This document shows positions 2,576-12,720 of a stretch of DNA of 46,449 nucleotides, piece by piece. The DNA comes from a virus. The number at the start of each line of letters is the position of its first letter. Within the stretch, counting starts at the first letter, position 1. The notes beneath the pieces were generated by a model. The model was not told the DNA's origin and made no database searches. It saw only the letters and a list, made by a program, of their open reading frames with translations. Position numbers and translations under genes: made by a program. Location of the stretch: the IMG/VR virus record IMGVR_UViG_3300021478_000005, positions 1 through 46,449 of that record. One strand, 5' to 3'.

Positions 2576-2787
2576 CCGACTTTGAAAACCGCCTTGCCGA
2601 CGCGCTGGCGCTCGCCGCCCTGGTACGCGAGGCCCAAGACGAATACTTTCACACGCGTCGTCAGAGCAGCGACGGCGAACAGGTAATCAAAAAACTGGTC
2701 GCAGCTAAACAGGCCGAAAAGAAATTCGACGCCGTGTGTGGCCCGATACTGGCCGAGGCCCGCTCGCGCGGGTGGGCACCGTCGTGA
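2572..2787 (+). CDS. hypothetical helical protein
   Basis: 71 residues, predicted almost entirely helical (LADALALAALVREAQDEYF, then VIKKLVAAKQAEKKF). No known domain is seen. ATGA overlap upstream and GTGA overlap downstream place it firmly in the operon. Confidence 0.55.
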   Translation: MTDFENRLADALALAALVREAQDEYFHTRRQSSDGEQVIKKLVAAKQAEKKFDAVCGPILAEARSRGWAPS

Positions 2788-3167
2788 CGAACGAAATCGG
2801 CGTGCCCCGCGCCGGCTTCTACCAGTGCCGCCTGATCCGTGGCGGCATGTGGGTGCCGGTGGAGATCTATTTCGGCCGCCCGATGGTGGACGGTGAATTG
2901 CTCGACCGCAGTCCACGGTGGTGTGCCGTGGTGGACGGGCGCACCGACCGCAACGACTACGACGCCGACGGAAACCTGCTGGGCCGCGTGCCCCTCGATC
3001 CCATCCTCGACGAGGTGTGGATGTGGTGCTGCGGCCATCCCATCACCAAGGCGGAATACGAATTCAAAACCCGCCTGCGCCTGTGGGCCAAGGAACACGA
3101 CCCGGACCACCCGGCCGCCAATCCGACCAAGCCGATCGACATCCGCAAACTCAAGCCTGCGTGGTGA
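2784..3167 (+). CDS. hypothetical protein
   Basis: 127 residues from a GTG start overlapping the previous stop. A compact Trp/Tyr-rich fold with a C-terminal charged tail (HDPDHPAANPTKPIDIRK). The segment WMWCCGHPITKAEYEF is distinctive. It resembles small phage proteins of unknown role that carry this WxWxxGxPIT pattern, but I cannot name a function. Confidence 0.6.
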   Translation: MTNEIGVPRAGFYQCRLIRGGMWVPVEIYFGRPMVDGELLDRSPRWCAVVDGRTDRNDYDADGNLLGRVPLDPILDEVWMWCCGHPITKAEYEFKTRLRLWAKEHDPDHPAANPTKPIDIRKLKPAW

Positions 3168-4461: not shown

Positions 4462-4948
4462 ACTCGTTACCACCACTGGCGCACGAGGCCACCGGGACGA
4501 AAGCCTAAGAGCGTTCCTCGATGATCTCCGCCGTGAACGGCCGGCACTGTTCACCGACCGCCGACTTGATGAAATCGTGGACGAGATCGAGGGTTACGCC
4601 GCACGTGCCACCAAGCGGGACAGTTTTCGATTGTCGGTGCAAGCCTACCTGTCGAGTGTGGACCCACAGACCCGCCGACCCGCGCCACTTCGAGCCCGTG
4701 AAACCCGTGTTCAACGCGCCAACCGCTTGGCCACCGACGTGGCACGTGATTTACGTCGGCTGCTTGGCTCCATTGGACCCACCACAATCATTGGCGACAA
4801 GCCGCTCGGGGACTGGAAACTGGGCGAGCTTCGCAGCTTGGGTGGTGCGTTCACCACCATCTTGGAGATCGCTGGCCCGGGTGATGACGAACGGCTCGTG
4901 CGTAACGTGATGAAGGCCGCGCACTGGCGTCGGCTTCGGGCCACATGA
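4448..4948 (+). CDS. hypothetical protein
   Basis: 166 residues from the ATG at 4448, preceded by a good GGAGG site at about -10. It is helical and charged, without transmembrane segments. The middle is Arg-rich (RARETRVQRANRLATDVA). No family recognised. Its stop overlaps the next start by ATGA, within the early operon. Confidence 0.6.
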   Translation: MTTAELVTTTGARGHRDESLRAFLDDLRRERPALFTDRRLDEIVDEIEGYAARATKRDSFRLSVQAYLSSVDPQTRRPAPLRARETRVQRANRLATDVARDLRRLLGSIGPTTIIGDKPLGDWKLGELRSLGGAFTTILEIAGPGDDERLVRNVMKAAHWRRLRAT

Positions 4949-5172
4949 CCACCTTGGACCCTGCCCGCGTGGCGATGATCGTGGACCGGATCAAGCCGCA
5001 CCTCGTGGGCTACCACCCGGCCTATCAGGGTGCCGCCATCGCCAACCTGCTGGCGATCTGGCTGTCGGGCCACCACGCCGACATGCGCGACGAAATGCTG
5101 GCGATGCACGTGGCCACGGTGAAGGAACTGGTGCCGGTGTACGTGGCCGAAATGGGAGTGTTCGATCGATGA
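4945..5172 (+). CDS. hypothetical protein
   Basis: 75 residues. A predicted helical bundle with one mildly hydrophobic stretch (AAIANLLAIWLSGHHA) that is too short for a clear membrane span. No motif recognised. Coupled by ATGA overlaps on both sides, which supports translation. Confidence 0.55.
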   Translation: MTTLDPARVAMIVDRIKPHLVGYHPAYQGAAIANLLAIWLSGHHADMRDEMLAMHVATVKELVPVYVAEMGVFDR

Positions 5173-5402: not shown

Positions 5403-6389
5403 ATGGCCATCACCGACCTGTACGACGACGACATCGACGCGCCCCACCTCGTGGACATCCTCGCCGCCGAAGCGCCACCACCCGGGCGGGCGCTGGCCGA
5501 GATCAAGCAGGAAGACCTCGTCAAACTGTCGGCCCTGCACTTCGCGCCGATCACCGCCGTGCGGTGCGAGGTGGAACGGTCACAGGCCAAGGTGCTGCTC
5601 CGCATCCGCGAGGACGCCGCGATGGGAGGCTCCGAATTCTTCTACTCGTTCCCGGTCAAAAAAAAGGGCGGCGGCGTGGACTACATCGAGGGCATCACCA
5701 TCGACGGCGCACAGGCCACCATGCAGGCCTATGGCAACTGTGAGGTCGATTGCCGGTTCATCGACACCGCCACCGCGTGGGTGTTCCTTGCCCGGTTCGT
5801 GGACTACGAGCGCGGCACGTCGTTGATCCGTCCGTTCATGCAGCGCAAGTCCGGCGGATCTCGGTTGGGCGGCGAAGACGAAGGCCGCCGCCTCGAGGCC
5901 GCGTTCAACATCGGTGCCAGCAAAGCCACCCGTAACGTGATCGCCAACGCGATCCGGCCCTACACAAATTTCTGCTTTGCGGAAGCTAAGAACGATCTGG
6001 TGAAACGGGTGGGCGCGCGACTGGCCGAACACAAGCAGCGGGCGGTGACGCGGCTGTCGGAGTTGGGTGTCGATCTGGCCCGGGTGGAAGCCCTGCAGGG
6101 GCGCGTGCTGGCCGACTGGACGGCCCGCGAGGTGGCCGGTGTGCTGACGCAGATCACCGCCATCCGCCAGGGTCTCGCCGTTCCCAACGACGTGTGGCCC
6201 GTGCCCGTGCCCGAACCCCGCCGAGCCGATACTGCCGCGCCTCACCCCACCTCCACTTCTCCCCCGGAGGCTGGCGGCGGCACCGGCGATGGCCCCGTGC
6301 CGTCGTCGGCTTCCTCTCCACCGGCCGAACCCGCCAAGGTTGATGCTCTCAAAAAGGCCGCCGACAAGAACGCCGGGGGCAAACCGTGA
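5403..6389 (+). CDS. putative recombination protein (single-strand-annealing-like family)
   Basis: 328 residues. The core around 80-200 contains a GGG..IEGITIDGAQA segment, then a GNCEVDCRFID strand, an ARFVDYERG strand and a conserved ASKATRNVIANAIR helix. This order (EGP/EGI helix, GN strand, V-D-E strand, ASKARRNAI helix) matches a widespread phage family often found in place of RecT/Erf-type annealing proteins. The C-terminal 60 residues are Pro/Ser-rich linker ending in a Lys-rich tail. I infer a DNA-annealing or recombination role; no catalytic motif proves it. It sits among small zinc-ribbon genes in the early region. Confidence 0.45.
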   Translation: MAITDLYDDDIDAPHLVDILAAEAPPPGRALAEIKQEDLVKLSALHFAPITAVRCEVERSQAKVLLRIREDAAMGGSEFFYSFPVKKKGGGVDYIEGITIDGAQATMQAYGNCEVDCRFIDTATAWVFLARFVDYERGTSLIRPFMQRKSGGSRLGGEDEGRRLEAAFNIGASKATRNVIANAIRPYTNFCFAEAKNDLVKRVGARLAEHKQRAVTRLSELGVDLARVEALQGRVLADWTAREVAGVLTQITAIRQGLAVPNDVWPVPVPEPRRADTAAPHPTSTSPPEAGGGTGDGPVPSSASSPPAEPAKVDALKKAADKNAGGKP

Positions 6390-6652
6390 AGCGGCGACGT
6401 CGGCGCAACGCCACCCAGCTCGTGGCCGCCCGGACGTTGATCGACATCCGGCAGAAAAAGCGGACCTTTCTCAAAGAGGTTGGCGCGATCCTGAGTGAGG
6501 CGCTGGGTTTCGACGTCAAGGTGTCCCTGTCCAAGCCCGACCCGCACGCCAACCTGTCGCCCGAGCAACGCCGCTATGCCCGGATGAGCCGCGCCGATGC
6601 CCGCGCCCAGGTCCGCGACGCGTTCGCGCCGCTCGATGGCCGCAAGTCATGA
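6386..6652 (+). CDS. small basic protein
   Basis: 88 residues starting MKRRRRRNA, overlapping the previous stop. Strongly basic at the N-terminus, helical afterwards, and it may bind nucleic acid. Directly downstream of the candidate recombination gene, so a partner role is possible but unproven. Confidence 0.5.
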   Translation: MKRRRRRNATQLVAARTLIDIRQKKRTFLKEVGAILSEALGFDVKVSLSKPDPHANLSPEQRRYARMSRADARAQVRDAFAPLDGRKS

Positions 6653-7016: not shown

Positions 7017-7294
7017 TGGCCTCCCGTGAGCGCCGCATCGCGCCGCGCCGCGGGCTCGACCTGGTCGACGCCGCAGGCTTTGTCGGCGTCGGTGTAAACA
7101 AGTTTCGAGATCTCGTGGCGCGCGGACTGATGCCGCGCCCGAAACTGATCGATGATCGGCGCGTGTGGGACGTCGATGCCCTCGACATCTACTTTTCGGC
7201 ACTGCCCGAGGATGATCGGGCCGACTCCGCGCGGACCCCGCAGGGAAGACAGAACCGGACCGACCCCCGGCCGGACGGAATTCCGTGGAAATAG
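7016..7294 (+). CDS. xis: excisionase-like winged-helix DNA-binding protein
   Basis: 92 residues. Residues 15-60 match an AlpA/MerR-type winged helix: LVDAAGFVGVGVNKFRDLV, then the wing with GLMPRPKLIDDRRVWDV. The usual motif is (S)xxTFxxxVxxGxLPxPxxIGxRxxW. Such small proteins act as excisionases or prophage regulators that bend attachment-site DNA. It lies about 1 kb upstream of the integrase on the same strand, which fits an Xis role. Regulator of the AlpA type is the alternative. Confidence 0.6.
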   Translation: MASRERRIAPRRGLDLVDAAGFVGVGVNKFRDLVARGLMPRPKLIDDRRVWDVDALDIYFSALPEDDRADSARTPQGRQNRTDPRPDGIPWK

Positions 7295-7421
7295 TCGAGG
7301 TGCAGCCATGGGTTGCACTCCCCTTGTCCCATGTGCGGCAGGGGTTACACCTTATCCCCCGGGCAGAACCCGGGGCCCGGAGGGTCGAGCACCCCCGGTC
7401 AACACCACGATGGAGTAGAAG
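7295..7421 (+). promoter_or_regulatory. structured leader upstream of first paralogue
   Basis: 127 noncoding bases. A 7-bp GC hairpin lies at 7357-7375 (CCCCGGG / CCCGGGG, loop CAGAA). A second hairpin lies at 7377-7398 with loop TCGAGCA, followed after 9 nt by CGATGGAG (7408-7415) and, 6 nt later, the start codon. The second hairpin and its spacing recur in the leader at 7934-8041. It probably acts as RNA, controlling translation or mRNA stability. Confidence 0.55.
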
Positions 7422-7742
7422 ATGACGACGACGACCAAGACCCCCGCCGAAAAGCGGGAAGCCGCCAACGCCCGCCGCCGCGCAGCACGGGCCGCCGCCC
7501 GGGCCAAGGGCGGCAAACCCAAGGTGGAGACCAAGGCCAAGGCGGAACCCGCCGACGTCAAGGTGAAGCCCACGAACCCGAAGCTGGTGACGCTGGTCAA
7601 GGAACACGCGGAGAAGAACAAGGACCGTAACGGGTGGGACAAGGTGGCCAAGATGAAGGACGCCGACCTGATCACCTTGCTCGCCGGGGCCAAGACCCCG
7701 AACGCCGCCGTGAAGCGGGCCCGTGCCGTGGCGAGCGCGTGA
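7422..7742 (+). CDS. small protein, paralogue A, with basic Ala-rich N-terminus
   Basis: 106 residues. The first 45 are Ala/Lys/Arg-rich (RRRAARAAARAKGGK). The C-terminal 55 form a small domain: LVTLVKEHAEKNKD, NGWDKVAK, D.DLI..L, AAVKRAR. The same pattern occurs in the 8042-8281 gene, so the two are tandem paralogues separated by one gene. Function unknown. The N-terminal tail resembles histone-like or ribosomal-tail sequence and may bind DNA or RNA. Confidence 0.6.
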   Translation: MTTTTKTPAEKREAANARRRAARAAARAKGGKPKVETKAKAEPADVKVKPTNPKLVTLVKEHAEKNKDRNGWDKVAKMKDADLITLLAGAKTPNAAVKRARAVASA

Positions 7743-7933
7743 TGGACTACACCATCGTCCTCACCCGGGGTGACGGCAGCCGCCTTGGCCCGGATGTCCT
7801 GTTGCGGAAAACCTATCCGCCGACCGTGAAGGTGAACCACGCGGTGGCGTCGTTCATCAACGACATGATCGCCAAGCAGATCGTGTGGGAGTTGGACATG
7901 GCCCTGCACATCGATGATCCGCGCAACGATTAG
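7742..7933 (+). CDS. small hypothetical protein
   Basis: 63 residues, its ATG overlapping the preceding TGA by one base. Compact, mixed alpha/beta, no motif recognised. It lies between the two paralogous genes and is followed by a structured leader, so it probably belongs to the first copy of the duplicated module, with no second copy present. Confidence 0.5.
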   Translation: MDYTIVLTRGDGSRLGPDVLLRKTYPPTVKVNHAVASFINDMIAKQIVWELDMALHIDDPRND

Positions 7934-8041
7934 GGACCATTGACGGTGAGGTCGGGGGAGCGATCCCCCGGCCGATCCGCCAGCGATCCCGCTGGACCCG
8001 TGGCTTGAGCACCACGGGTGATACCTACGATGGAGACTAAA
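7934..8041 (+). promoter_or_regulatory. structured leader with three hairpins upstream of second paralogue
   Basis: 108 noncoding bases with three consecutive hairpins: 7953-7970 (CGGGGGA / TCCCCCG, GCGA tetraloop), 7980-7995 (CCAGCG / CGCTGG) and 7997-8018 (CCCGTGG / CCACGGG, loop CTTGAGCA). The third resembles 7377-7398 in loop and position but has a different stem sequence. CGATGGAG follows at 8028-8035 and the ATG at 8042, the same spacing as in the first leader. Confidence 0.6.
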
Positions 8042-8281
8042 ATGACAGACGACAAATTGAGCCCGTGGCCCACCACCGCCGAGCTTGTGGAAGCGGTTAA
8101 AGCCCACGCCAGCCGCAACTACGAGAAGCGCGGCGGGTGGGACATCATCGTGGAGTGTTACTCGGACGGCGAGATCGAGGACATGGTCCGAGGGTGCCGC
8201 TCCAAGTCGGGCGCGATCAAGAAAGTGGGCCAGACCGCCCGCCTTCTCGATGATCGCCGCCGCGACATCCAGAACGCCTAG
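8042..8281 (+). CDS. small protein, paralogue B
   Basis: 79 residues. The domain LVEAVKAHASRNYEK, GGWDIIVE, SDGEIEDM, GAIKKV aligns with the C-terminal half of the 7422-7742 protein, so both derive from one ancestral gene. It lacks the basic Ala-rich tail of paralogue A. It is the last gene before the integrase. Function unknown. Confidence 0.6.
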   Translation: MTDDKLSPWPTTAELVEAVKAHASRNYEKRGGWDIIVECYSDGEIEDMVRGCRSKSGAIKKVGQTARLLDDRRRDIQNA

Positions 8282-8288
8282 GTGGACC

Positions 8289-9479
8289 ATGAGCAAGAAC
8301 TGGCCCGCCGAGTGGGGAAAGCGCCCCAACTACGTCACCGCCTATCGGGGCAAGCCCACGTTCCAGCGCCGCAAGGGCTCGCCCCGCGTGGTGATGTCCA
8401 CCGACCCGCGAGACCGGGTGGCGTTCGAGCGTGAACACCTCCAGATGATGGCCGCCGCCGCCAATGGCAACCTCACGGCCCGTGTGGCCGGTGGTGTCCA
8501 GTCGGATCACCATCGGAACAAGCACAAGCGATCCCTCGGGGACCTCGCCACTCAATGGCGCGGCTCCACGGCGTTTCAACGGTGCAAACTGGAAACCCAG
8601 CGGCAGAACCTGCGGTATGTGGACCGCATCCTGACCACCACCAACCCGGCCACGGGCGCGCCGTTCGCCCACATGCTGGTGCCCGACATGATGATGGCCG
8701 ACGCCATCGCGATCAGGAACGCCCTGCCCAAGCCCAGCCGGTCACGATGCAAAACCGACAGCGCCTTCCGCGACCACCACATGCGGATCGCGCGAAATAT
8801 GTTTCACTGGGGCCTTGGCGAGGGTGGGGTGGACTACGTCAACCGGAACCCGTTTGCCCGGCTGAAGCCGCTGACCTCCGAGACCGAACTGGACTACGCG
8901 TGGCGGCCGCGCGATTGGGAGAAGTTCGCCACGTTCTTCCCGGTGGGATCGATGCAGCACCTTGCGATCATCCTGCTCCGATACCTCGGGGTCCGGGTGA
9001 GTGATCTGGCCGACCTCGGGGCCGACAACGGGCGGCTGTCCTACATCGAGGACGACGACAAGCCCGGCAACAAGACCGGCAAGCGCATCCACTGGGTGGA
9101 GTACAAGAACCGCACCAGTCAGGCCAAGCCGATCACCAAGCGGCGGAACCTGAAGGTCCACCCGGTTCTGTGGGCCACGTTGAAGGCCACACCCGGGGCA
9201 CTGGACCGTCCCACGTTCCTCGTGTCCCGGCTGGGCGGCGCGTATCAGCACGACACCATCGGCGAAATGTTCAATCGATGGTGCGTGGAAGCCGGATTGC
9301 CGGATCAGGCGCGGGCACATGGTGTGAGACGTGGGACCGCCCAGCACCTTGCCCACAACGGTGCCAGCCTCCACCAGATAAAGGCGTTCGGTGGTTGGCG
9401 GGCCCTGTCCAACGTCCAGCGATACACCCGTGGTGCCGACGACGGCGTGATGGGTGACGACGCGTTGGACAATCTGTGA
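8289..9479 (+). CDS. int: tyrosine recombinase / phage integrase
   Basis: 396 residues. The C-terminal catalytic domain shows the tyrosine-recombinase set: Arg about 236 in LLRYLGVRVSDLADL, His-x-x-Arg at 344-347 (HGVRRG), Trp about 370 in GGW in place of the second His, and the nucleophile Tyr about 379 in VQRYTRG. The N-terminal part has a core-binding-like helical region (FRDHHMRIARNMFHW). Length is normal for phage integrases. The enzyme inserts the phage genome at attB, with the excisionase-like protein upstream as likely partner. I could not identify attP next to it. An upstream-extended reading from 8085 runs through paralogue B and is rejected. Confidence 0.9.
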   Translation: MSKNWPAEWGKRPNYVTAYRGKPTFQRRKGSPRVVMSTDPRDRVAFEREHLQMMAAAANGNLTARVAGGVQSDHHRNKHKRSLGDLATQWRGSTAFQRCKLETQRQNLRYVDRILTTTNPATGAPFAHMLVPDMMMADAIAIRNALPKPSRSRCKTDSAFRDHHMRIARNMFHWGLGEGGVDYVNRNPFARLKPLTSETELDYAWRPRDWEKFATFFPVGSMQHLAIILLRYLGVRVSDLADLGADNGRLSYIEDDDKPGNKTGKRIHWVEYKNRTSQAKPITKRRNLKVHPVLWATLKATPGALDRPTFLVSRLGGAYQHDTIGEMFNRWCVEAGLPDQARAHGVRRGTAQHLAHNGASLHQIKAFGGWRALSNVQRYTRGADDGVMGDDALDNL

Positions 9480-10200: not shown

Positions 10201-10218
10201 ACAACGATGGAGACGACA

Positions 10219-12288: not shown

Positions 12289-12720
12289 GTGAAAAAAATC
12301 GATGGAATGCCGGTGGGCAACGCGTTCATGCCGATACGGCTGAAGGTGACGGAAGCCGACATCAAGAACGGCGCTCGCAAAAATGAGAACGCCTGTGCGA
12401 TCGCGGTGGCGGCGGTCCGACAGGTCAAGGGCGTCACGGCGGCCAAGGTCCACCTCGGGGTGATCTACCTGTGCCAGAACGGCCAGTGGAAACGGTGGCA
12501 CACGTCGAACGGGGCTCGCACGGAGATCATCGTGTTCGACCGAGGCGGACGGTTCGTCCCGGGCGAATACGATCTGCTGCCCGTGCCACCGCAGTCACTG
12601 TTGAGGCGGTACCGCGCGGCGGCGAAGCCCCGACCTGGTCCGAAGCGGCGGCGGCGGCGCAAGCCCCACTACGTGGAGGACGTCCGCAACAGCGCCCACC
12701 GAAACGATCCCGACAACTGA
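12289..12720 (+). CDS. hypothetical basic protein
   Basis: 143 residues from GTG at 12289 (reads MKKIDGMPVGNAFMPIRL). The first 100 residues form a small alpha/beta domain. The last 40 are strongly basic (RRYRAAAKPRPGPKRRRRRK), which suggests nucleic-acid binding. First gene behind the operator/promoter. Function unknown. Confidence 0.6.
   Translation: MKKIDGMPVGNAFMPIRLKVTEADIKNGARKNENACAIAVAAVRQVKGVTAAKVHLGVIYLCQNGQWKRWHTSNGARTEIIVFDRGGRFVPGEYDLLPVPPQSLLRRYRAAAKPRPGPKRRRRRKPHYVEDVRNSAHRNDPDN

Follow-up and report, generated by a model that had tools for sequence, protein, structure and literature searches.

Does a hairpin that stands in front of each of two paralogous phage genes act as a regulatory RNA, or was it simply carried along when a leader and its gene were copied? 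The question arises from the window analyzed here, an entire virus record of 46,449 bp with a GC content of 64.6%, in which early genes occupy the plus strand to about 14.7 kb and the structural genes beyond lie mostly on the minus strand. An earlier note on this DNA had described two small paralogous genes, each behind a hairpin with a similar loop, and had proposed a selected RNA element whose stems covary. We confirmed the observation of two hairpins before two paralogs; the reading of them as a conserved, covarying RNA regulator has as yet found no support.

The reported interval coincides with an inserted, moron-like cassette, which the earlier note had not recognized. Upstream of it lies a gene for an excisionase/AlpA-like regulator (7019-7294, plus strand), whose PHROG matches are weak (regulator 25900, E 2.7e-4; excisionase 66, E 9.7e-4), and downstream a tyrosine integrase gene (8289-9479, plus strand; PF00589, E 4.8e-13). 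Near relatives of the phage were reached via the portal protein. One of these, G001 (21.6 kb), has an identical portal and no match to the early region; in two others, G003 and G006, the early region is present without the whole insert, and in both the homolog of 7019-7294 is followed directly by the integrase gene, at a distance of 13 nt (locus L110) and 9 nt (L111), respectively. A third phage (L120) shows the same compact state with a gap of 12 nt, compared to 994 bp in the window. Because the excisionase-like and integrase genes are nearly adjacent in three other phages, 7295-8288 (plus strand) is an insert, and since all three share the compact state, a gain in this lineage is the simplest reading. 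Phage morons and lysogenic-conversion cassettes likewise place additional genes where relatives have two neighboring genes, and in relatives of this phage the stretch is indeed missing from between its two flanking genes. It differs from many of them in that its GC content (0.61-0.68) is like that of its flanks; a base composition unlike the flanks is common in morons and not obligatory. On the coding strand of the insert, a scan that covers sigma-70-like promoters and U-tract terminators found neither. Searches of viral contigs with the integrase, gene 1 and excisionase-like proteins returned no close relative of the insert. Elsewhere in the early region, the genes at 4945-5172 and 6386-6652 have homologs in G003 (L110 6592-6795 and 6141-6365) that stand in another order, before the homolog of 2781-3167, and this difference in gene order indicates that small early genes have been shuffled between relatives.

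Within the insert, gene 1 (7422-7742, plus strand; 106 aa) encodes a lysine/alanine-rich N-terminal tail and a GWD-type helical domain, a 63-aa ORF for which no family was found (7742-7933, plus strand) overlaps its stop codon, and gene 2 (8042-8281, plus strand; 79 aa) encodes a GWD-type phage protein with a four-helix model (pLDDT 90.5). The paralogy of genes 1 and 2 was borne out by BLASTP (32% identity over 53 aa, E 6e-9), and querying the record with protein 2 recovered gene 1 at E 1.3e-6. Compared to gene 2, gene 1 has the lysine/alanine-rich front tail in addition and is missing most of the last helix. Pfam gave no family above its cut-off for gene 1 and contains none for the gene 2 family, which is marked by an invariant GWD motif. 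Members of that family occur in phage and virus records; none was found in plasmids, and the 398 sampled Pseudomonadota genomes gave a single match, the centre genome, which had been chosen because it matched. A structure search with the high-confidence gene 2 model returned no PDB match with E <2, leaving it without a solved relative, and the viral structure library yielded two significant matches, both to uncharacterized Pseudomonas phage proteins.

Both genes stand behind GC-rich leaders on the plus strand. Leader 1 (7295-7421) has four predicted hairpins and folds at -55.1 kcal/mol over 7295-7424; leader 2 (7934-8041) has three adjacent hairpins and folds at -58.6 kcal/mol over 7934-8044. 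Hairpin 1 (7377-7398, plus strand; apical UCGAGCA) and hairpin 2 (7996-8019, plus strand; 8 bp, loop CTTGAGCA) appear both in the predicted folds and in the ensembles, where they are the most probable local structures, with pair probabilities of 0.90-1.00 across the whole-leader ensemble. Each is immediately preceded by another strong hairpin that the earlier note had passed over, at 7357-7375 (CCCCGGG-cagaa-CCCGGGG, in the MFE structure) and 7980-7995 (CCAGCG-atcc-CGCTGG, in the predicted fold), both on the plus strand. The coordinates first given for the two hairpins (7377-7398 and 7997-8018) stand for hairpin 1, whereas stem 2 gains the pair A7996-U8019 and ends 8 nt, not 9, before CGATGGAG; the distance of 9 nt is thus correct for hairpin 1 only. 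The likeness of the loops is also narrower than described. The word GAGCA is common to both, but U7385 pairs with A7391, leaving hairpin 1 with a bulged A7381 and a loop of only 5 nt (CGAGC), and because of this pair the common word takes in one closing base of hairpin 1; the loop of hairpin 2 has 8 nt. In the predicted fold of leader 2, CCATTG (7937-7942) pairs with CGATGG of the ribosome site (8028-8033), closing a multi-branch loop that lies over the ribosome site and encloses the three hairpins. Leader 1 has no counterpart of this pairing, and for that reason we do not build upon it.

Part of the reported constancy is generic, in that CGATGGAG is the ordinary extended ribosome site of this phage's early genes. 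It occurs five times on the plus strand (7408, 8028, 10205, 12273 and 12723), always just upstream of a start codon (7422, 8042, 10219, 12289 and 12737), and a hairpin accompanies it in two of the five cases. The spacing CGATGGAG-N6-ATG is exact for gene 1 (site at 7408-7415) and gene 2 (8028-8035), as had been noted, yet the same N6 spacing recurs without a hairpin at 10205 and 12723, and 12273 has CGATGGAG-N8-GTG. Ensemble prediction leaves the ribosome site outside both stems. Predicted openness of the site is 0.43 and 0.34 beside the hairpins, compared to 0.65, 0.02 and 0.39 at the three genes that have none, and greater accessibility beside the hairpins is therefore not predicted.

Aligned at their start codons without gaps, the leaders are identical at 33 of 49 nt, and at 20 of 32 when the ribosome site and start codon are left out, a level that random 32-mer pairs from the window reach at a frequency of 1.3e-4. 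As to chance hairpins before unrelated starts, in such GC-rich DNA 9-10% of the shuffled versions of each leader form a stem of 7 bp or more whose end lies 12 nt or less from the ribosome site. However, the joint frequency of two such hairpins with near-equal spacing and a common five-letter loop word was about 1e-4 in a shuffle test, all of these chance tests having been framed after the data had been seen, and the genes are paralogous in any case; of all the explanations weighed here, chance is hardly credible and the least probable. The duplicated leader within the accessory insert is real, and the claim of a duplicated leader-plus-gene module holds, on the paralogy and on the gapless leader match. 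The alignment indicates that the two leaders are most likely duplicates related by descent, and descent would be sufficient alone to account for their common loop and spacing.

The covariation that had been read into the stems did not withstand analysis. In the homologous register, five of the eight stem pairs are unchanged (alignment columns 2-23, 3-22, 5-20, 7-18 and 8-17), one is compensatory (4-21, C-G to G-C), and two (1-24 and 6-19) no longer pair in leader 1, which recovers stability through a one-base slip that bulges A7381. Random re-dealings equaled the observed covariation in 244 of 500 trials; the stems appear to hold no covariation signal, and two sequences cannot show any. A single compensatory change against two broken pairs, equal to shuffles, is what would be left if the hairpin were only a relic of duplication, copied with leader and gene, passed on in GC-rich DNA and serving no function itself. 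The stability of leader 1 (7295-7407), ordinary for its base composition (z -1.84 relative to shuffles), with 6% of shuffles matching the hairpin 1 region, is consistent with such a relic, as is the finding that the hairpin is kept in no homolog. Less easily reconciled with it are the much greater stability of leader 2 (7934-8027) compared to shuffles (z -4.68, 0 of 1000), where the hairpin 2 region is exceptionally stable (0 of 2000), and the fact that leaders matching at 33 of 49 positions, with both stems still pairing, precede proteins that have diverged to 32% identity. On balance, we regard a relic as possible, if doubtful.

None of the collections searched yielded a homolog of either leader. 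The pattern TTGAGCACC-N6-18-CGATGGAG gave 53 matches in 2.9 million viral contigs, the script's hairpin flag being a rough filter, and these were judged, by eye and by folding, not to be leader hairpins. Hairpin 2 had a BLAST match in Pseudomonas phage PaP_Se (35 nt, E 0.09), which falls within a coding sequence on the opposite strand and was attributed to chance. The earlier note had called for a covariance model; ours (R1), built from the two sequences only, gave as its best match outside the window, in 52 loci, a different hairpin that lacks the GAGCA loop and precedes a DUF3489 gene of G003 (19.1 bits, E 0.036), and it found no match in 398 Pseudomonadota genomes in a run without a positive control. 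The leaders share with the cis-regulatory families of Rfam their position before a gene, whereas the whole window has no Rfam match at the gathering score, and a relaxed scan gave chance-level matches only. A lack of conserved structure among homologs, which the earlier note itself regarded as evidence against its proposal, is in part what we observed: no GAGCA hairpin or loop precedes the homologous genes in about 20 relatives (24-57% identity), all of them distant and from unrelated phages, and two relatives of this phage hold the region without the whole insert. Given the distance of these gene relatives, the result is compatible with an element restricted to this lineage. The members of a broad protein alignment (A1) varied too much to support a scan of loci.

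The gene relatives without the hairpin argue against an autogenous translational operator, in which protein 1 or 2 would bind the UYGAGCA loop and block ribosomes in the manner of gp43-type phage operators. The position is suitable, with a common-loop hairpin just upstream of the ribosome site of each of two paralogs and a basic tail on the product of gene 1, and there is a precedent: T4 gp43 binds an upstream hairpin whose length varies between T4 and RB69, while its top bases and loop are kept (PMC3014915). That operator, too, lies upstream of a phage gene's ribosome site. However, it extends into the ribosome site and is bound by a DNA polymerase, and relatives of the window genes lack the hairpin. 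The protein model, in addition, has no solved structural relative that would hint at RNA binding, and we consider an operator of this kind unlikely.

GC-rich stems lying between genes could also be transcription terminators or pause sites that separate the cassette genes from upstream transcription. The window does have a terminator-like hairpin on the minus strand (34986-34965), GCCGGGGC-CTTTGT-GCCCCGGT, in which TTTTTCTTT follows the stem and a GGAGG ribosome site comes immediately after. The G003 locus L118 also has, near 12293 on the minus strand, a hairpin of terminator type that differs from this one, carries a T run and lies before a ribosome site. No T run follows the stems of the two leaders (the following sequences are TCAACACCA and GATACCTA), neither hairpin was listed by the terminator scan, and this explanation is very unlikely. 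It is conceivable, too, that the elements act in DNA, as an inverted repeat (spacer 7-8 nt) whose two copies, in direct orientation, serve the neighboring tyrosine integrase or mark cassette joints; they lie beside the integrase gene and within the insert, and their layout resembles core sites. The arms of recombinase sites are expected to be alike, yet the arms differ between these two sites, the symmetry of site 1 is broken at two of eight pairs, and the window contains no further copy, which makes a DNA-level role highly improbable.

Structured leaders are found elsewhere in this group of phages. Toward the far end of both G003 and G006, small genes are arrayed with hairpin-rich leaders, and one two-hairpin leader is identical at 58 of 59 nt between them (L118 17502-17588 in G003, L119 18798-18889 in G006) and more stable than shuffles in both (z -3.6 and -3.4). 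It precedes a superinfection-immunity gene in G003 (PF14373, E 7e-16) and a family-less 74-aa ORF in G006, and its upstream stem shows one double change that keeps pairing (TCGG/CCGA versus TCCG/CGGA). Its core hairpin was not found in the 398 sampled genomes. Possibly it is a mobile structured leader. Like the window leaders, it has two adjacent strong hairpins, with a small accessory gene and its ribosome site behind them; it differs from them in sequence, in loops that are unlike GAGCA, and in standing nearly unchanged before unlike genes. The G003 and G006 leaders do not show the window leaders to be the same element; they suggest that this group of phages habitually places structured leaders ahead of accessory genes. 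In the same G003 locus, the DUF3489 gene (L118 16405-16789) has a lysine-rich N-terminal tail, as window gene 1 does, and lies behind a hairpin leader. A broader conjecture strikes us as quite unlikely: that the small accessory genes of this group travel with short two-hairpin leaders, the UYGAGCA hairpin being one kind, that a factor of phage or host reads these and thereby determines expression in the lysogen, and that such leaders could be swapped between unrelated genes, as the leader common to G003 and G006 suggests.

We favor a passive structural role for the hairpins, with a relic of duplication as its nearest rival and an autogenous operator third, although the available sequence does not decide among them. 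The favored reading, held tentatively and at somewhat less than an even chance, is that 7295-8288 is an accessory gene cassette between excisionase-like and integrase genes, with duplicated multi-hairpin leaders in which the hairpins probably serve as a passive barrier or stabilizer. Weighing against it are the failure to find leader homologs in the collections searched, the ordinary stability of leader 1, ribosome sites predicted to be no more open than those without hairpins, and the lack of a promoter-like site in the scan of the insert. On this reading, the cassette carries one module in two old copies, each a GWD-family small phage gene behind a GC-rich leader with several hairpins, and the hairpin beside the ribosome site was inherited from the common ancestor of both leaders. 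The insert, the paralogy, the likeness of the leaders and the predicted stems are established; we infer that the stems matter, and how they act. Most likely, the stem, stiff and positioned 8-9 nt ahead of CGATGGAG, would work passively in the mRNA, either shielding the 5' side of the message or preventing transcript farther upstream from base-pairing with the ribosome site.

What had been suspected of being an RNA switch is thereby recast as a structured leader within an accessory insert, a case that can be tested. The analysis also points to a better-supported structured leader in the sister phages, where it stands before a gene for superinfection immunity. Should leaders of this kind be modular, they would illustrate how phages equip incoming genes with ready-made expression control.
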